Of a stretch of DNA of 57,395 bases, positions 5,619-33,034 are shown piece by piece. Position numbers and translations under genes: made by a program. The notes below the pieces were generated by a model. That model saw only the letters and a program-made list of their open reading frames with translations. It made no database searches and was not told where the DNA came from. This stretch comes from a bacterium (GTDB lineage Bacteria; Acidobacteriota; Aminicenantia; Aminicenantales; Aminicenantaceae), in the NCBI GenBank assembly GCA_018335295.1, contig JAGXKI010000002.1:66643-124037 (forward strand). Reading direction: 5' to 3'. The first letter of the stretch is position 1; each line of letters starts with the position of its first letter.

Positions 5619-6821
5619 GTGCCAAAATTGAATAAGAAATCCAGGGTTCCATCCAAAGTTTCCATGGTGAAATTGGAGGATTATCATGGTCCCCACATTT
5701 CCAAGGCTCTCCAAAAGTGCTTTGACCTGTTGGGAGGAATCCAGAATATTATTTCTCCTCGAAGCAAAGTCTTCGTGAAAATCAACCATCTCAGTCCTCC
5801 CTCACCCCCTTCGAAAGCCATAATCACCCATCCCTATCTGACCAGAGAAGTTCTGCGGTTCTTGAAGAACCTGGAATGTCAGATCACAGTCGGAGACGAT
5901 ATTCAATCTTTCCAAAAAAACGGCACCACTGTATCGGGTTACCGGCAGATGTGTGAGAAAATGGGAGTGGATCTGGTCAACTTAAAAGAAGTAGGATTTC
6001 AGGAAATTTCCTGTTCAGGGGCAAAGCTCAAGAGACTCCATCTATCCCCTCGGGTCCTCGAAGCCGACTGCCTCATAAATCTCCCCAAGCTAAAAACTCA
6101 CTCTTTTACTGTGTTTACTGGAGCGGTGAAAAATATGTACGGTATGATTCCATACGGACGGCGTCTTCACTACCACCGTCAATTCTCTCTTCCCGATGAT
6201 TTTTCCCAGATGCTTGTGGATATTTACGCCTCCATCCCCCCAAATTTAACCATCATGGATGCGGTAGTGGCTATGGAAGGGGAAGGACCTTCCGCCGGAC
6301 AGCCTCGAAAAACAAAGACCCTCTTAGCCAGTGAGGATGGAGTGGCTGTGGATGCCGTATCTTCCAAAATGGTGAGATTCCATCCCATGGATATACCCAC
6401 TACCTATCACGCCCATCAAAGATTTCTGGGCAATGGAGATATGAATTGGATTCAGGTCTTAGGAGAGGATCTCAACCATCGGATCGTGAAAGATTTTAAA
6501 CACTCTGAAGCTGCCACTGGAATGTTCCGCCGAAGGACCCCCCAACTCCTTTATGCCTTAATCCAAGGTCAGCTCACCCTTATTCCTGAAATCATTCCAC
6601 AAAGCTGCACTGGGTGCCAAGAATGCATCCGGATATGCCCTACTGGTGCCGCCCGATGGTTTAAAGGTAAAGCCTGGATCCATCCAGGTCCCTGTATTCA
6701 CTGCATGTGCTGTCACGAAGTCTGTCGATTTCAAGCGATTAAATTAAAAATGCGTCCGGTGGGCAAAATTGTCCGAAAAGGGATCTCCTTAACCCATCGA
6801 ATCCGAAGTTTATGGAAATAG
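5619..6821 (+). CDS. DUF362 protein with C-terminal 2x[4Fe-4S] ferredoxin domain
   Basis: A 400-residue protein with an N-terminal DUF362 domain (KVFVKINHLSPPSPP, then INLPKLKTHSFTVFTGAVKNMYG) and a bacterial ferredoxin domain. The cysteine motifs are CTGCQECIRICP and CIHCMCCHEVC, enough for two [4Fe-4S] clusters. Such fusions are frequent in anaerobes; their role is unknown but the ferredoxin part implies electron transfer. The first possible start is a GTG at 5619 with no clear ribosome site; an ATG at 5664 just before VKLEDYHGP is the main alternative. It is divergent from the class V aminotransferase operon and convergent with the small membrane protein gene. Confidence 0.85.
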   Translation: MPKLNKKSRVPSKVSMVKLEDYHGPHISKALQKCFDLLGGIQNIISPRSKVFVKINHLSPPSPPSKAIITHPYLTREVLRFLKNLECQITVGDDIQSFQKNGTTVSGYRQMCEKMGVDLVNLKEVGFQEISCSGAKLKRLHLSPRVLEADCLINLPKLKTHSFTVFTGAVKNMYGMIPYGRRLHYHRQFSLPDDFSQMLVDIYASIPPNLTIMDAVVAMEGEGPSAGQPRKTKTLLASEDGVAVDAVSSKMVRFHPMDIPTTYHAHQRFLGNGDMNWIQVLGEDLNHRIVKDFKHSEAATGMFRRRTPQLLYALIQGQLTLIPEIIPQSCTGCQECIRICPTGAARWFKGKAWIHPGPCIHCMCCHEVCRFQAIKLKMRPVGKIVRKGISLTHRIRSLWK

Positions 6822-13036: not shown

Positions 13037-13119
13037 GAAGGAACTCCAGGTTTACTTTTCTTTGGAACCTTCAAGATTTATGATAATATACTCAAGGAAA
13101 TGAAAGAAGGGTGCACCCT

Positions 13120-14076
13120 ATGAATCTTTTCGAAATGACCCAAAGGCCTAATCCGGAGCTGTTTCATCAAGGGCATGATCCCCATGACCCTCGAATGGGT
13201 CAGAAGGTTTATCGAGAACCCCCAGACCTCAAAACTTCTCCCGTGGTGATCCTGGGTTCTCCTCAGGATGAAGGGATCAGGAGAAACCATGGGAGACCCG
13301 GAGCCCGGAAGGGCCCTCAAGAAATCCGGCGGGCTTTTTACAAATTATCTCCGACCCCCTTGTTAGACTCTCTCCGCATTTTCGACCTCGGAGACGTTCC
13401 GGTCGGAGATACCCTAGAAGAAACTCACCGTATTCAGGAAGCTATCGTTCACCAAATCCTCAAACAGGGTAAACTGGTTGTCATCTTGGGGGGAGGAAAT
13501 GACATTTCCTATCCGGACTGTGCGGCTTTAGCTAAAATCAAAACAGATATTCTTGTATTCAACATCGATAAGCACTTTGATGTCCGTGACCTCACTCCTC
13601 GGAACAGCGGCACTCCCTATCGTCTTCTGCTGGACCAAGAGCTCATTGACCCCCAAAAATTTTATGAAATGGGCTCAGAACCTTTTTCTAATTCTCCAAT
13701 CTACAAACAATATCTTCAAGATAAAAAAGCCCATGTGATCTCCCTTCAAAAAATGCGTGACCAAGGCATTTCTTCTCTTTTCCAGGATATCTTGGGGAAA
13801 CATTCCTCCTCCATAGAAGCCATATTCTGGGGGTTTGACCTGGATTCAGTGAGAAGTTCGGATGCCCCCGGAGTCAGCGCCAGTTATCCCACTGGATTGA
13901 CTGCTTCTGAAATATGCCAGATTGCCCAAATTGCGGGAAAAGAAACCTCCCAAGGGATCATCGAATTCACTGAAATCAATCCAGAAACGGATGTGGATCA
14001 TCGGACCAGCAAATTAACCGCAATCCTGCTTCACACCTTTCTTTCTTCTTATTCTAAAAATAGGTTCGGTAAGTGA
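13120..14076 (+). CDS. Formimidoylglutamase-like ureohydrolase (arginase superfamily)
   Basis: A 318-residue member of the arginase/agmatinase/formimidoylglutamase superfamily. Metal-ligand motifs are D150, H152 and D154 (NIDKHFDVR) and D240, D242 (GFDLDSV), followed by DAPGVSA and EINPETDVDHRTSK. The first canonical ligand, histidine of GGxH, is replaced by N127 (LGGGNDISYP), so one manganese site is altered. GRPGARKGPQEIR near residue 60 is typical of the hutG branch. Together with ftcD at 31976 it could belong to histidine/formiminoglutamate metabolism. GAAGG before the ATG at 13120 decides the start; a GTG nine bases upstream is the alternative. Confidence 0.7.
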   Translation: MNLFEMTQRPNPELFHQGHDPHDPRMGQKVYREPPDLKTSPVVILGSPQDEGIRRNHGRPGARKGPQEIRRAFYKLSPTPLLDSLRIFDLGDVPVGDTLEETHRIQEAIVHQILKQGKLVVILGGGNDISYPDCAALAKIKTDILVFNIDKHFDVRDLTPRNSGTPYRLLLDQELIDPQKFYEMGSEPFSNSPIYKQYLQDKKAHVISLQKMRDQGISSLFQDILGKHSSSIEAIFWGFDLDSVRSSDAPGVSASYPTGLTASEICQIAQIAGKETSQGIIEFTEINPETDVDHRTSKLTAILLHTFLSSYSKNRFGK

Positions 14077-14989: not shown

Positions 14990-15224
14990 TCTTTTTCTCT
15001 CAATCCTTTCTTTAGGAAAACTCTTCCTCGAATGGAACCCAGTCTTAATATAAAGGGAACAGGTATAAATTTCCAGGAGACTCTCCCAAATCAGTTGAGG
15101 GGTACCAAGGAGATATGTCCCTTTGGTGGCAGGACAAGAGGAATTCCTGTCCGTTAAGGGGAGTCAGCGAGCAAAGCGAACGTTGGAAGTTGACTTTACC
15201 TTCCATATTATTTATCTTTTTCCC
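14990..15224. other. 235-bp divergent spacer with imperfect inverted repeats and a promoter
   Basis: No coding sequence is convincing here, although a frame runs into the NTPase gene from 15123. An imperfect inverted repeat at 15132-15152 has outer arms GGACA/TGTCC around GGAATTCC. Just downstream is a GGGGAG...GCGAGCAAAGCGAA stretch, similar in flavour to the element at 18902-19049. Confidence 0.35.
15190..15218 (+). promoter_or_regulatory. Candidate promoter for the NTPase-AOR-aldolase operon
   Basis: TTGACT (15190-15195) and TATCTT (15213-15218) are separated by 17 bp. The ATG at 15225 begins only 6 nt after the -10, so the transcript would be leaderless. No Shine-Dalgarno precedes that ATG. 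Confidence 0.45.
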
Positions 15225-15740
15225 ATGATATTCATCCTGACGGGTCCGGTTCATTCAGGAAAAACAACTTTTCTTTGCCATCAAACCCACATATGGAAAA
15301 AAAAGAAACTCCAGGTGGATGGATTTCTCAGTGTGAGAAGAGGGAAAGGCCAAACCCATCTGGGTTATGACCTTTACGACTTGAAAAAAGAAAAGTCCCT
15401 CCCTTTCATCCGCAAAAACGGAGAACCTGAATGGCCCCGGGTGGGACCTTATTATTTTATACCTCAAAGCCTGAAAGAAGCTCAAAACATTATTTTCAGA
15501 GGAGAAGAATCCTTTCTGGTGGTAATCGATGAATTGGGTCCTCTGGAACTTAAAGGTCAAGGATTATGGCCTTCTTTGGAACAGGCTCTTTTTCAGAGAA
15601 GAAACCGATTCCTTCTGGTAGTGAGAGAATCCATACTGGATGGTATCATCCATAAATTGGATAATATAAATACGGAGGTATCGGAGGTGTTTGTCCCCTC
15701 CCCTTCCACACAGATTACTGAAAAAGTATGGAGACTCTAA
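15225..15740 (+). CDS. P-loop nucleoside triphosphatase of the THEP1 / DUF2478 type
   Basis: A 171-residue NTPase. The Walker A motif GPVHSGKT is at residues 7-14, the Walker B-like segment is VVIDELGPLEL, and GYDLYDLKKEKS matches the conserved GYDl region of the THEP1 family. These are small cytoplasmic NTPases of uncertain role; DUF2478 relatives occur near molybdenum/tungsten genes. The start is taken as the ATG at 15225, directly before the P-loop strand; the frame is open further upstream but reads as spacer. It lies 9 bp upstream of the AOR gene, which suggests a service function for that tungsten enzyme (inference). Confidence 0.75.
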   Translation: MIFILTGPVHSGKTTFLCHQTHIWKKKKLQVDGFLSVRRGKGQTHLGYDLYDLKKEKSLPFIRKNGEPEWPRVGPYYFIPQSLKEAQNIIFRGEESFLVVIDELGPLELKGQGLWPSLEQALFQRRNRFLLVVRESILDGIIHKLDNINTEVSEVFVPSPSTQITEKVWRL

Positions 15741-15749
15741 CCTGGAAAA

Positions 15750-17591
15750 ATGAGGATGCCTTCTGAATACGGCTTTTACGGAACTCTTCTTGAAATCAAC
15801 CTCACAGAGGGAAAAATTAACCAAAAAAAACTGACTCCGGATTTGATTGAGAATTACTTAGGGGGAAGAGGGCTGGCCACCCGTATTCTATACGAAAACA
15901 TTGATCCTTCCTGTGATCCTCTGGGAGAACACAATGTTTTGGTTATCGCCACCTCTCCTCTGTTGAAAACCAAAGCTCCTACAGCCTGCCGGGGACATAT
16001 GGTTTTCAAATCTCCCCTCACCGGAATGCTGGGAAGCTCTAATTGTGGAGGAACCTGGGCCAGCCGTCTCAAATCCACGGGTTATGATGCTTTAATGATC
16101 AAAGGCAAAGCCTCTCAACCAGTTCAGGTGGACATCCAGAGGGAAAAAACAGAGATTCGTCCCGCCGCAGAGGTATGGGGAAAAGATGTTCATCAAACCA
16201 CGGACATTCTCAGTTCTCAAAAAAACTCCTCCCCTTCTCCCGGCATACTGACTATCGGTCCCGCTGGAGAAAATCTGTGTTTATACTCAGCGGTCATGAA
16301 TGATAAAAACAGGGCCTACGGACGCTCTGGCCCTGGAGCTGTCTTTGGGAGTAAGAACCTCAAAGCCATCACAGTTACCGGAAAGATGTCTCCTCCCTTA
16401 AAAGATAAGGAACGCTTCCAATCTGGTCTGGATCAAGCCCTTTACATGATGAAAGCCGCTCCCATCACCAAAAGACTTCTTCGAGAGCTGGGAACTTCGG
16501 GATTGCTTAAACTTATCCATCTCATGGATATGCTCCCCCATCAGAACTTCCAAGACAATCTTCATAATATGAAGGAGTTGGATAAAATATCGGGAGAAAC
16601 TCTACGCGAGAGTATTCTGGAAAGGGTGGGAGCCTGTTATGGGTGTCCTGTGGCCTGTCAGACACACACTCGGGTAGGGGAAAAAAAGGGAGAAGGACCG
16701 GAATACGAGACTTTGGTGATGATAGGCCCTAACTGCGGAATCTATAACCTGAAAGCTGTGGCCTTGGCTAACTACCGGTGCAACGAATTAGGCTTGGATA
16801 CCATTAGTTTGGGAGGCACTTTAGCTTGTGCTATGGAACTTTATGAAAAGGGAATTCTGGATAAAAAAACAACGGGAGGAATTCCTTTGAACTTTGGAAA
16901 TGAGTCCCTTCTTCCCCGTTTGGTTGACCTGATAGCTTACCGGAAAGCCTTTGGTGAAAAGTTGGCTGAAGGCTCCTTCCGTCTAGCCTCTGACTTTCAC
17001 CATCCCGAACTCTCCATGACCATAAAGAAAATGGAAATCCCTGCTTACGACCCCCGCTCTTCCTTCACTCAAGCCCTTGGCTATATGACTTCTCCTACGG
17101 GAGCCTGTCATTTGAGAGGAGGATACGCTGTGTCTTTAGCTTTTTTTGGAGGAACCAAAGAAATTCCTCGATTCAGCATTCAACAATCCCCATTGGCCAT
17201 CCGAAATATGCAGAATTTGGGCATCATCCAGGATAGCCTAGGAATCTGTCGTTTCACAGGGTTCGCTTTTTCCACTGAACCGTGGGCTCGGATGATGAGC
17301 GGAGCCACAGGTATGGATTTTTCAACTTCCCAACTCCAGAAAATTTCTCATCGAATTGCCTCAATGGAAAGAGCTTTCAACCTTCAGGCTGGTCTCAAAG
17401 AGGAAGATGACTGTCTGCCGGACCGCTTTTCTCATGAATCCATTGGAGTGGAAGGAAAGGATAAGCTCATTTCCCCTGAATTGATCCAAAGAATGCGCCG
17501 AGACTATTACCAATCCCGGGGATGGAGCCCAAAGGGTAAACTTTCTACTCTTATTCGGGCTGATCTCCAGCTAAACAAGAGATATACATGA
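15750..17591 (+). CDS. Aldehyde:ferredoxin oxidoreductase family tungstoenzyme
   Basis: A 613-residue protein of the AOR family. The N-terminal domain has LGGRGLATRILYENI and TGMLGSSNCGG, followed by GPAGENLCLYSAVMND and GRSGPGAVFGSKNLKAI, which bind the bis-tungstopterin. The [4Fe-4S] ligands are C296, C299 and C303 (GACYGCPVACQTH) with the distal C500 (DSLGICRFTG). The family oxidises aldehydes to acids with ferredoxin, or runs the reverse in some anaerobes; the substrate is unknown. The neighbouring aldolase-like protein could supply or consume an aldehyde. The ATG overlaps nothing and follows the NTPase by 9 bp; its stop overlaps the aldolase start (ATGA). Confidence 0.93.
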   Translation: MRMPSEYGFYGTLLEINLTEGKINQKKLTPDLIENYLGGRGLATRILYENIDPSCDPLGEHNVLVIATSPLLKTKAPTACRGHMVFKSPLTGMLGSSNCGGTWASRLKSTGYDALMIKGKASQPVQVDIQREKTEIRPAAEVWGKDVHQTTDILSSQKNSSPSPGILTIGPAGENLCLYSAVMNDKNRAYGRSGPGAVFGSKNLKAITVTGKMSPPLKDKERFQSGLDQALYMMKAAPITKRLLRELGTSGLLKLIHLMDMLPHQNFQDNLHNMKELDKISGETLRESILERVGACYGCPVACQTHTRVGEKKGEGPEYETLVMIGPNCGIYNLKAVALANYRCNELGLDTISLGGTLACAMELYEKGILDKKTTGGIPLNFGNESLLPRLVDLIAYRKAFGEKLAEGSFRLASDFHHPELSMTIKKMEIPAYDPRSSFTQALGYMTSPTGACHLRGGYAVSLAFFGGTKEIPRFSIQQSPLAIRNMQNLGIIQDSLGICRFTGFAFSTEPWARMMSGATGMDFSTSQLQKISHRIASMERAFNLQAGLKEEDDCLPDRFSHESIGVEGKDKLISPELIQRMRRDYYQSRGWSPKGKLSTLIRADLQLNKRYT

Positions 17592-18904
17592 ATGAAAGAA
17601 AATGGAGGATTCCCTCCCAAATTATCCGTCTGTTTCAGGCGGTAGGACGAGCCTCTTTGCTTTATGACATCCAGGACAGCCACAGTGGGAATATGGCTCT
17701 CAAACACAGAGATAAAAAGGGAAGGGAACAACTCATCATCACCGCCTCAGGGTCCCAAAAGGGAGATCTGGAACCCCAACATCTCTGTGCTCTCTCTCCA
17801 AACAAAACCGATTTTGGGTATTATAAAGCCTCATCTGAAACAGATATCCATTCTCGAATTCTTAACCTAAAAGGAATCAATGCCTCCCTCCATGCTCACA
17901 CTAAGGATTTGGTTATTGCCACGTTAGACCCGGAGAGAAAACCCAATCATCCCGCTCCATTCATTCCCGCGGATCCTTTGGGGTATCAGGCTCTCGGAAT
18001 CATCCCTGTAGACTGGTTCCGGGTCCCCAGTGGATCTCCTGAAATGATCCAAAAAATCCCCCAACGCCTGAAAGATCATTCCGCCACCGTGATCCAGGGC
18101 CATGGAGTGATGACCAGGGCCCGAACTCTTCAGGAAGCTTTTTTTCTGGCTTGTGTGGCTAACAATTCGGGGTACATCTTCCGTCTTCTGGAAAAACACG
18201 GAGTGGAAATAGAGCCTTTGCGGAAAAAGATTGTTTCGGATTCTTATTCCTGTTTCTCTTTTCCCGCTCCTTATACTCTTCAGGATGATCACTCGTGCGA
18301 TTTTTCTCACGAGGAAGAATTGGTTAAGGAATTCCAAAAGACCGGAGCTCGAATTTTTGAATCCCGTCTCTCTCCCTTCCATACAGGGTCATTTTCACTC
18401 CGGGGAGTCAAAACGATGTTTTATGCTCCCAAAGCTTCCATGCCCCGAGAATTGGGAGGCCCTCTCCTGGAGAAATCTTTAGAGAAAAAAAATTCAGATG
18501 GGTATGAAGAAAAGATTCATAAAGAAATTTACAGTCAAAGCAATTTCCAAACCGCCATGCACTGTTATATCCCCGAAGCCGAAGTCCTAACCCATATAAG
18601 TCCCCCCGGTACAAATTCACCTCCGGACCGCCTTGTGCCCGTCGATGCGGAAGGAAGCTTCTTTTACCTGGTGATTCCCATTCTCTCTTCTCCCCCTGAA
18701 ATGGACTCATTTCTTCAACTTCTCCATGATTACAAAGTCGTGATCGTACGCGGAGGGGGAGTCTGGGCTGTGGGTGAACAATCTCTCTCCGAAGTCCTTC
18801 ATCATCCTTCCTCAGTCCGGGAAATCTGTCTTTACCGTTTGGGAGCCCGGGAACGAGGACTGGATTTAGGCAAAATGGAACCCGCCAAAGCGAAAAAATG
18901 GTGA
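17588..18904 (+). CDS. Tandem class II aldolase/adducin-domain protein
   Basis: A 438-residue protein made of two class II aldolase-like units. Unit 1 (about 1-225) keeps a full active site: E84 in SSETDIHS, H102 and H104 in LHAHTKD, and H172 in GHGVMTRA, the zinc triad of fuculose- or ribulose-phosphate aldolases. Unit 2 (about 240-425) follows the same pattern but is degraded: AMHCYIPEAE replaces the HxH pair and RGGGVWAVG replaces GHGV. The second unit is probably structural or regulatory. Translational coupling to the AOR gene (ATGA) implies that the two act together, perhaps producing and oxidising an aldehyde. Substrate not predictable. Confidence 0.8.
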   Translation: MNERKWRIPSQIIRLFQAVGRASLLYDIQDSHSGNMALKHRDKKGREQLIITASGSQKGDLEPQHLCALSPNKTDFGYYKASSETDIHSRILNLKGINASLHAHTKDLVIATLDPERKPNHPAPFIPADPLGYQALGIIPVDWFRVPSGSPEMIQKIPQRLKDHSATVIQGHGVMTRARTLQEAFFLACVANNSGYIFRLLEKHGVEIEPLRKKIVSDSYSCFSFPAPYTLQDDHSCDFSHEEELVKEFQKTGARIFESRLSPFHTGSFSLRGVKTMFYAPKASMPRELGGPLLEKSLEKKNSDGYEEKIHKEIYSQSNFQTAMHCYIPEAEVLTHISPPGTNSPPDRLVPVDAEGSFFYLVIPILSSPPEMDSFLQLLHDYKVVIVRGGGVWAVGEQSLSEVLHHPSSVREICLYRLGARERGLDLGKMEPAKAKKW

Positions 18905-19049
18905 GGAAAAGAGTGCGGGATTCGTCACACGCTCGATTTCCCAGCGAGAAATCTCGCTCCCATTCGGGCTTCGCTCCCCTCTCTTTCCGAGAGGAACCAT
19001 GCCCACTCAGCCCTCATAGGGGATTCCTCATCCCACACTCTTTTCCTCA
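18902..19049. repeat. 148-bp element bounded by a 20-bp inverted repeat
   Basis: The left arm at 18902-18921 and right arm at 19030-19049 are complementary over 20 bp with one mismatch (core GAGGAAAAGAGTG). The left arm overlaps the stop codon of the aldolase gene. Inside are two further perfect hairpins: AGCGAGA/TCTCGCT with a 2-nt loop (18943-18958) and CCTCTC/GAGAGG with a 5-nt loop (18978-18994). There is no T-run after the right arm, so it does not look like a simple terminator. It could be a non-autonomous palindromic repeat or a structured 3' UTR. Confidence 0.6.
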
Positions 19050-30508: not shown

Positions 30509-31989
30509 GCTCACTCTTCCAGATACCCCCGAAATTAAAAATTATTTTAACCCTTTTACTTTTTTTCCTCCTTTGGGGAAGCATTCCTTCATTTAGTCAG
30601 GAAAAATTCAGAAAATCTCCCCCACCCCCGGATCCTCTTCCCCAACTCAATCTTCCTGAGATCAAATCGGCTGTTCTTTCCAATGAACTGAGTGTTTCTG
30701 TGGTCCAACAAAAAGGCCCGCCTATTATCACCCTTCAACTCATGGTTCTCTCTGGAGAAAAATCATCTCCCCCTGATTTGCCTGGTCTGGCCAGCTTCAC
30801 CACCCGTATGCTTCCCAGAGGTACAGCCGCTTTTTCTTTTTCTGAAATCCAAGAAAGGATCGAATCCATCGGAGGGGATTTTTCCACCTCTACCCACATG
30901 GATTATTCCCTCATAAATTTTTCTTTTTTGGAACAATATCTAGACGAAGCCCTCCAACTTCTCAGCCGCATGATTCTGCATCCTGATTTCAACAAACAAG
31001 AAATCGCCAATCTCAAAAGATCCATAAATTATGAATTGATGGACAATTCCACCAACCCAAAATTCCTCTCCAAAAGGCTTCTCTACCATATTCTGTTCCA
31101 AGATCACCCTTATCAAAACATGGCCTACACCAAGGAAGATATAAATCAAATCACTCAAAAAGATATTTCTGAATTTTTTGAGAATCATTACAGACCTAAT
31201 AATGCCAAAATAACTTTGGTTGGAAACCTGAGCCTTTCCACAGCCACCAGAAAAGTCAGCCATTATCTCAATACATGGAGAAACCAAGATGTAAAAAAAA
31301 TCCCTCCTTCTTTCCCTGAACTTAACAAAAAATTAAAAATATGTTTTATGGATGTTCCCCGTGTCAAAAATCCCATTATCCTCGTGGGCAACCTTGCTTC
31401 TCCCATAAATCACCCTGACTTCTTTCCTTTTACGGTTTTAAACCAGGTCTTAGGAGGCACTCCCACCAGCCGCTTGTTCATGAACTTGAGAGAATCCAAA
31501 GGTTATGCCTTTTATTCTTTCAGCCGCTTGGAATTATTTAAAAGTTGTGGAGTTTTTTCCATCGAATCCAAAGTAAGACCTCAAGTCATCTTTGATTCGG
31601 TCCAAGCAGTGTTGAATGAAGTAAAAAAAGTAACCCAAGAGCCCATTCCCAGCGATGAAATTGAGCAGGCTAAATCCTATTTGATCGGAAATTTTCCTCT
31701 AGCTCTGGATCACTTCCGCAGTTTGTCTCTTCAACTGGCAAAAATCCAAGCCTATAATCTGGGTCAATATCACTGGGAAGATTATTATGAAAAAATCAAG
31801 CCCATCGGAGCCGAAGGAGTTTTCAAAGTCGTCAAAAAATACCCTCTTTCCAAACCTGTAGTGATCATCGCTGGAGAAAAAGAAGAGACTTTTGATTACC
31901 TCCAGAAGTTTGAAGAAATCTACGTTTATGATTCCAAGGGAAAACTGAAGTATGTGCAAAGGAAAAAGGAAAAAGATGAAAGTTATTGA
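30505..31989 (+). CDS. M16 family non-catalytic subunit (second of the pair)
   Basis: A 494-residue exported M16 protein with a hydrophobic leader (LKIILTLLLFFLLWGSIPSFSQ). At the zinc-motif position it reads LASFTTRMLPRGT, so no HxxEH exists, as expected for the non-catalytic partner of M16B heterodimers. The C-terminal half keeps TSRLFMNLRESKGYAFYSFS, similar to the Arg/Tyr substrate-gripping motif of such subunits. Translational coupling to the first gene indicates a 1:1 complex in the periplasm. The last 14 nt overlap ftcD. Confidence 0.85.
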   Translation: MSSLFQIPPKLKIILTLLLFFLLWGSIPSFSQEKFRKSPPPPDPLPQLNLPEIKSAVLSNELSVSVVQQKGPPIITLQLMVLSGEKSSPPDLPGLASFTTRMLPRGTAAFSFSEIQERIESIGGDFSTSTHMDYSLINFSFLEQYLDEALQLLSRMILHPDFNKQEIANLKRSINYELMDNSTNPKFLSKRLLYHILFQDHPYQNMAYTKEDINQITQKDISEFFENHYRPNNAKITLVGNLSLSTATRKVSHYLNTWRNQDVKKIPPSFPELNKKLKICFMDVPRVKNPIILVGNLASPINHPDFFPFTVLNQVLGGTPTSRLFMNLRESKGYAFYSFSRLELFKSCGVFSIESKVRPQVIFDSVQAVLNEVKKVTQEPIPSDEIEQAKSYLIGNFPLALDHFRSLSLQLAKIQAYNLGQYHWEDYYEKIKPIGAEGVFKVVKKYPLSKPVVIIAGEKEETFDYLQKFEEIYVYDSKGKLKYVQRKKEKDESY

Positions 31990-33034
31990 ATGCATTCCCA
32001 ATTTTAGTGAAGGAAGAGATTCCCAAAAAATCAAATCCATTGTCGATGAAATTCAATCTTCTTCCCGATTGGGGGTCCTGGATGTCTCCTCTGGAAAAAC
32101 AACCAACCGCACCGTGGTGACCTTCATCGGCACTCCTCAAGGGGTCAAAGAAGGAGCCTTTCGAGGGATTAAAAAGGCCTCCCAGATCCTTGATATGAGA
32201 AAACATCACGGAACCCACTTGCGCATGGGAGCTACAGACGTCTGCCCTCTGGTTCCAGTCCAAGGAATGAATATGGAGGAATGCATCCAAATTTCCTTTG
32301 AATTAGGCGAAAGAGTGGCTCATGAATTGAATATCCCTGTCTTCCTGTATGAAAAATCAGCCCAACTCCCTGAGCGTCAAAGCCTGGCTCACATCCGGAA
32401 AGGTCAATGGGAAGGGCTCTGTGAAAAAATAAAAGACCCTCACTGGACTCCGGACTATGGAGGTCCTATATTCAATGCTAAAACAGGAGCCACCGCTATC
32501 GGAGCCAGAAAGTATTTGATCGCTTTAAACATCAATCTCAACACTCAAGATAAAAACACAGCTCATCGAATTGCCGTTCGTCTAAGGGAAAGCGGGGGAA
32601 TCCAAAAAGATCATAGAGGAAACATCGTTAGGGATAAATATGAAGACCCCGTCCTCCTTCATGGAAAATTCAAAGCAGTCAAGGCCATGGGATGGTATGT
32701 GGATGATTTCAAGATAGCACAAATCTCCATCAATTTCACAGACTATCAAACCACCCCTCCTCATATTGTTTTTGAAGAAGCCAAAAAAGAAGCAAAAAAG
32801 TACGGGGTGAAAGTGACCGGTTGTGAGCTGGTGGGATTGATTCCTAAACAGGCCCTCCTTATGGCCGGGAGGTACTACCTAAAAGAATCAGATAAAAACT
32901 CCCAAATCCCTGAAAAAGAAATCATAAACACAGCCATCGGCCATTTAGGATTGAATGATGTCACTCCTTTTAACCCCTCTAAAAAAATCATCGAATATCA
33001 AGTTCAAAAATATAAAAAAATCCTTTATCCCTAA
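31976..33034 (+). CDS. ftcD: Glutamate formimidoyltransferase
   Basis: A 352-residue enzyme transferring the formimino group of N-formimino-glutamate to tetrahydrofolate, a step of histidine and purine fermentation. Conserved elements are IECIPNFSEGRD, DVSSGKTTNRTVVTFIGTP, HHGTHLRMGATDVCPLVPV and GATAIGARKYLIALNINLNT. Only the N- and C-terminal transferase subdomains are present; there is no fused cyclodeaminase. The ATG at 31976 within the M16 3' end is the start, with an AAGGA-type site upstream. With the ureohydrolase at 13120 it suggests histidine catabolism. Confidence 0.93.
   Translation: MKVIECIPNFSEGRDSQKIKSIVDEIQSSSRLGVLDVSSGKTTNRTVVTFIGTPQGVKEGAFRGIKKASQILDMRKHHGTHLRMGATDVCPLVPVQGMNMEECIQISFELGERVAHELNIPVFLYEKSAQLPERQSLAHIRKGQWEGLCEKIKDPHWTPDYGGPIFNAKTGATAIGARKYLIALNINLNTQDKNTAHRIAVRLRESGGIQKDHRGNIVRDKYEDPVLLHGKFKAVKAMGWYVDDFKIAQISINFTDYQTTPPHIVFEEAKKEAKKYGVKVTGCELVGLIPKQALLMAGRYYLKESDKNSQIPEKEIINTAIGHLGLNDVTPFNPSKKIIEYQVQKYKKILYP

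Follow-up and report, generated by a model that had tools for sequence, protein, structure and literature searches.

A tungsten-type aldehyde oxidoreductase paired with a tandem class II aldolase as the probable end of an L-rhamnose pathway in Aminicenantes and other uncultured bacteria

The window analysed here is a stretch of 57,395 nucleotides from a 2.54-Mb metagenome-assembled genome (MAG) of 107 contigs, 93% complete, whose closest named relatives are Candidatus Aminicenantes bacteria. Three linked open reading frames of its forward strand encode a P-loop NTPase (15225..15740, with the ATG at 15225 as the most likely start), a 613-aa tungsten-type aldehyde:ferredoxin oxidoreductase (AOR, 15750..17591) and a 438-aa tandem class II aldolase (ALD, 17588..18904), for which a rhamnulose-1-phosphate specificity is proposed below. 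The AOR stop codon and the ALD start codon overlap in the tetranucleotide ATGA (17588..17591), as in translational coupling; the three frames and this overlap, already noticed in a preliminary description of the locus, are real. A 148-bp repeat element with 20-nt inverted-repeat ends (inverted repeat 95%) occupies positions 18902..19049. An Rfam scan of the window found no Moco-type riboswitch and no other RNA family. Near the operon, positions 5619-6821 encode a DUF362 + 4Fe-4S protein, conserved in some relatives.

The AOR is complete, as had been claimed from the letters alone. It carries both Pfam domains of the family, AFOR_N and AFOR_C (PF02730 and PF01314), three cluster cysteines in a CxxCxxxC motif at residues 296-303, the fourth within DSLGIC (495-500), and the pterin motifs; among 50 homologues, the cysteines of the cofactor motifs and the pterin motifs vary little or not at all. 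Its nearest solved structure is 1aor, the Pyrococcus AOR (E 7.6e-141). These domains and motifs assign the protein to the tungsten AOR family and predict the use of a tungsten-bispterin cofactor and of ferredoxin. The domains, cluster cysteines and pterin motifs are those of the archaeal-type homodimeric enzyme, from which the ALD-linked AORs differ in forming a separate clade (59 rows, support 100) with most members encoded beside ALD. Characterised AORs have a broad substrate range, as illustrated by the Aromatoleum enzyme (PMC6365974, with no mention of lactaldehyde). No AOR besides the locus copy was found in the window genome. In two relatives, a flavodoxin gene stands directly after ALD (L083, 11366-11842; L095, 1307-1783), and its product is a possible electron acceptor for the AOR.

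The aldolase has PF00596 as its only Pfam content (E 6.9e-26) and is the only class II aldolase, that is, the only PF00596 protein, found in the window genome. Unit 1 (17588..18271) holds the glutamate and the three metal-binding histidines of a catalytic class II aldolase, namely E84 (17837-17839), H102 (17891-17893), H104 (17897-17899) and H172 (18101-18103), none of which varies in the alignments, even in homologues of 28-30% identity. Unit 2 (18272..18904) lacks this set, as H102 corresponds to a kept H325 whereas H104 is replaced by Y327 and H172 by G390, within the motifs H325-C-Y327 and G389-G390-G391. Two motifs of its own, RGGGVW and LHHPSS, show strong conservation across the main clade. 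HHalign matched unit 2 to unit 1 with a probability of 97.8% (E 1e-12, 189 columns), and AlphaFold2 modelled full-length ALD with a mean pLDDT of 91 and the isolated unit 2 with 91.5. The top PDB match in Foldseek was the FucA structure 2fk5, with a TM-score of 0.85 for the whole protein and FucA TM-scores of 0.72-0.76 for unit 2 alone (both normalised by target). Thus, both units have the class II aldolase fold, and the division into one intact unit and one degenerate unit (HCY and GGG) that the preliminary description had proposed is borne out in residues and in structural match. Loss of the histidine ligands together with the conserved motifs and the FucA-like fold indicates that unit 2, as judged from sequence and model, is a conserved metal-less and non-catalytic aldolase domain. 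FucA-type enzymes draw residues from the neighbouring subunit, so that unit 2 plausibly builds the subunit interface for unit 1 within a FucA-like assembly.

The association of the two genes is conserved. Among 78 named loci encoding ALD, 71 had room for a neighbour to be seen, and an AOR adjoins ALD in 65 of these (our count), in reversed order in L130. Of 64 measured pairs, 41 have the exact 4-nt overlap, with the start nearest the stop taken where several were possible. The subclades of the AOR tree reappear in the ALD tree, among them one of four Planctomycetota. Across 99 genomes, 59 hold ALD with a close AOR, six ALD only, three AOR only and 31 neither (Fisher p 2e-16, kinship not corrected for). 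The pair spans at least three phyla and dozens of uncultured bacteria, a recurrence far beyond chance; an initial view that it is confined to Aminicenantes was rejected. The organism labels of several loci look doubtful, as with L074, labelled "Clostridiales" and grouping among Aminicenantes. Near-universal adjacency, frequent 4-nt overlap and congruent trees together give good support to the earlier suggestion that an aldehyde from aldol cleavage passes from the aldolase to the oxidoreductase. The two conditions named beforehand as able to refute it, rare adjacency and a second unit unlike an aldolase, both turned out in its favour for AOR and ALD. In Atribacteria, an AOR gene is followed by a gene for a single-unit class II aldolase of 204 aa, also with a 4-nt overlap (L146, 9995-14148; L148; L149), and downstream lie a glycyl-radical activase and a PFL-like glycyl radical enzyme; this locus possibly encodes a related deoxysugar route.

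The preliminary description had named no pathway with this gene set, and it is the neighbourhoods in relatives that place the pair with genes of L-rhamnose utilisation. The same-strand order RhaI-RhaB-AOR-ALD is found in a member of the Planctomycetota (L126) and in a MAG labelled "uncultured delta" (L127), RhaB and RhaI adjoin the pair in a member of the Phycisphaerales (L110), and L141 has the order AOR-ALD-RhaB. On a single-contig chromosome (L083 of genome G024), AOR-ALD-flavodoxin is followed by RhaA, RhaB and a GH78 rhamnosidase, and L095 is similar; RhaA, RhaB and GH78 stand beside an ALD with no AOR in L112, and RhaA-RhaB beside the pair with no GH78 in L104. These identities come from Pfam and NCBIfam models: RhaA by TIGR01748 above cut-off, RhaI by TIGR02635 (E 5.5e-159), the rhamnulokinase by TIGR02627, and the GH78 rhamnosidase. 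A rhamnose isomerase (RhaA or RhaI) and a rhamnulokinase are thus linked to the pair in Aminicenantes, in Planctomycetota and in the delta-labelled MAG. In different phyla, two non-homologous isomerases are thus tied to the same AOR-ALD pair.

Distribution among genomes with RhaAB adds to this picture. RhaAB clusters elsewhere in the order contain GH78 and no aldolase among the entries listed, and in six RhaAB-bearing genomes (G002, G012, G024, G033, G064 and G073) no class II aldolase other than ALD was found. Another genome (G075) combines RhaAB with a single-unit class II aldolase and is without ALD. Two high-quality genomes (G044 and G050) hold RhaAB without ALD, and both carry in its place a microcompartment locus (L186, 3129-9496, and L187, respectively), which in G044 encodes a BMC shell protein, a PduL-type PTAC, an aldehyde dehydrogenase and a class II aldolase. 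The PVM-type bacterial microcompartment for fucose and rhamnose is a known alternative for dealing with lactaldehyde (PMC4207490). There too, a class II aldolase makes lactaldehyde that is then oxidised, whereas the AOR-ALD locus comes without shell, PduL or CoA-aldehyde dehydrogenase; BMC shell genes were not found among the window genes scanned.

The pair most likely catalyses the two closing steps of L-rhamnose breakdown. We infer the substrate from the neighbouring genes: unit 1, as a divalent-metal class II aldolase, would split L-rhamnulose-1-phosphate into dihydroxyacetone phosphate (DHAP) and L-lactaldehyde, unit 2 would complete the subunit interface, and the AOR would oxidise lactaldehyde to lactate with reduction of ferredoxin. 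That the two proteins form such a module of rhamnulose-1-phosphate aldolase and L-lactaldehyde:ferredoxin oxidoreductase, orphaned in the window genome and nevertheless intact, is the reading that we favour with reasonable, not full, confidence. Its known counterpart is RhaEW, a rhamnulose-1-phosphate aldolase fused to an NAD-dependent lactaldehyde dehydrogenase (PMC3870299). Both systems would couple the aldolase to lactaldehyde oxidation, yield DHAP and lactate, and follow RhaA or RhaI and RhaB. They differ in that ALD has a second, dead unit and no fused short-chain dehydrogenase domain (only PF00596), and in that oxidation falls to a tungsten AOR encoded by a separate, overlapping gene. 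The output would be that of RhaEW, with the toxic aldehyde removed, but the electrons would stay at ferredoxin potential.

Several observations count against the rhamnose reading: ALD is nearer in sequence and fold to FucA than to RhaD, the window genome is without detectable RhaA, FGGY kinase or FucI, and ten genomes at least 90% complete, the window's included, keep ALD without RhaA or RhaB. In a first hypothesis, the pair is a general module for the disposal of deoxysugar phosphates, fed by MtnA in the window genome. Here 5'-deoxyadenosine or methylthioadenosine would be converted to 5-deoxyribulose-1-phosphate or methylthioribulose-1-phosphate, then to DHAP and acetaldehyde or methylthioacetaldehyde, which the AOR would oxidise. 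The model is the DHAP shunt (MTA/5dAdo phosphorylase, MtnA and Ald2) for 5'-deoxynucleosides (PMC10986504, PMC12632272), in which a class II aldolase likewise splits a 1-phospho-deoxyketose into DHAP and an aldehyde; the AOR-ALD pair differs from it in lacking linkage to mtn genes and in handing the aldehyde to an AOR. An MtnA-family protein is present in the window genome, ALD is the sole class II aldolase available there, and unit 1 weakly matches methylthioribulose-phosphate dehydratase, with fold matches to 6btd/6btg; these points and the ten genomes without RhaAB speak for disposal. However, MtnA is equally present in genomes without ALD, its gene adjoins tsaD rather than ALD, and neither mtnP nor mtnA turned up next to any of the AOR-ALD pairs, where rhamnose genes recur. 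The hypothesis was therefore downgraded, and we regard it as unlikely. Scarcely better placed is a more elaborate proposal that we offer tentatively: in a ferredoxin-reducing branch of deoxysugar catabolism, AOR and ALD would form a complex that channels lactaldehyde straight from the aldolase to the tungsten site and so conserves low-potential electrons, and the module would have been re-used for other 1-phospho-deoxyketoses (for instance from 5'-deoxyadenosine) in lineages that lost their rhamnose genes, the window's among them. The AOR cofactor would then be assembled with no recognisable MoeA.

The rhamnose reading also has to account for the window's own copy. RhaA, the type of rhamnose isomerase that the genome search covered, was not found in this 93%-complete MAG, no FGGY kinase (RhaB) scored above cut-off, although an assembly gap could hide one, and FucI was not found; absence from a MAG is in itself weak evidence. 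In close relatives (L073, L078, L095 and L132), rhaA lies between ALD and AsnRS, in the order ALD-RhaA-(UroD-like)-AsnRS, and in G002 (L172) RhaA-RhaB stand immediately before AsnRS. In the window, 237 bp separate the end of ALD from AsnRS, and this gap holds the 148-bp element, which begins at the ALD stop codon, at the relatives' rhaA (and rhaB) site. The element has 26 matching places in the window genome, many of them partial, and resembles a MITE- or REP-like family. Its presence in place of rhaA indicates that rhaA was probably lost or moved in this lineage. Considered with the undetected RhaA, RhaB, FucI, MoaD and MoeA, it suggests that the window pair is probably an orphaned, intact member of the module whose upstream rhamnose genes appear to have been lost, a point that the preliminary description had not noticed. 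The window also encodes a HutG-like arginase-family protein (13111-14076), a formiminotransferase (FTCD, 31952-33034), several peptidases, an amino acid permease and a hydantoinase-family protein, so that the organism looks amino-acid-using, which fits the loss of a sugar pathway.

An orphaned pair could be fed by another isomerase and kinase or by another phospho-deoxyketose, as MtnA is present, or it could be a young relic. A decaying relic, in which rhamnose catabolism is lost and AOR-ALD not yet degraded, would agree with the repeat element at the syntenic rhaA site, with the undetected RhaB, MoaD and MoeA, and with a window branch that is long relative to the nearest relatives (0.44 versus 0.17-0.31 for AOR, 0.55 versus 0.15-0.35 for ALD). 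These branch lengths are suggestive of relaxed selection, not conclusive. Yet both frames are intact with all catalytic residues kept, window-unique changes at otherwise invariant positions number none in ALD and three in AOR, and some housekeeping genes (NifS) are similarly accelerated; decay appears distinctly unlikely. Least probable by far is fuculose-1-phosphate as the main substrate: it would also give DHAP and L-lactaldehyde, the closest solved structures are FucA and class II aldolases are promiscuous, but the linked isomerases are RhaA or RhaI, the linked kinases score far higher as rhamnulokinases than as fuculokinases, and the window genome shows no FucI.

The preliminary description had called the NTPase a THEP1/DUF2478 type and had considered a role in cofactor insertion. 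The first half of the name holds, as the protein, with its Walker A motif GPVHSGKT, matches PF03266 (NTPase_1/THEP1 type) at E 2.8e-18 and 66.8 bits against a cut-off of 23.9; the second does not, DUF2478 (PF10649) reaching E 0.037 and 14 bits, under the cut-off of 22.3. In about 19 loci of relatives, the gene order is NTPase, MoaD-like, AOR, ALD, the MoaD-like protein having PF02597 and a C-terminal GGG. Linkage of a dedicated MoaD to AOR has been reported for other AORs (PMC1779556), and this precedent, together with these operons, suggests by analogy that the NTPase is probably an accessory of cofactor maturation; with the MoaD-like protein of the relatives, it would serve the pterin cofactor. 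The cofactor role is thus plausible, but within the window's own family most loci show no NTPase near the pair, so that it is an optional accessory. MoaD and MoeA_N (PF03453) were not found in the 93%-complete window genome, which counts against the rhamnose reading with respect to cofactor supply to the AOR. MoeA_N was not found in 21 genomes with a close AOR, including the single-contig chromosomes G012 and G024, each with several AORs. In many relatives, a secretin-family gene (PF00263) stands directly upstream of NTPase-MoaD-AOR-ALD (for example L056, 3902-6061; also L049, L051, L058, L060 and L065).

On the best reading, AOR-ALD is a new variant of rhamnose catabolism, a counterpart of RhaEW. 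No report combining an AOR with a class II aldolase, or an AOR with rhamnose and lactaldehyde, was found in the open-licence literature, which is weak evidence of novelty. Lactaldehyde is toxic, and fermenters of rhamnose or fucose must handle it. In some anaerobes, such as Caldicellulosiruptor, the enzyme that does so is unidentified (PMC8579813). If the proposal is true, the reductant-consuming conversion of lactaldehyde to 1,2-propanediol would be replaced by a step yielding reduced ferredoxin, which would change the energy balance of deoxysugar fermentation. The window's lineage, which is uncultured, is common in sediment habitats. Being small, the pair lends itself to direct biochemical work, and it would provide a concrete physiological role for one clade among the many AORs known from environmental genomes.
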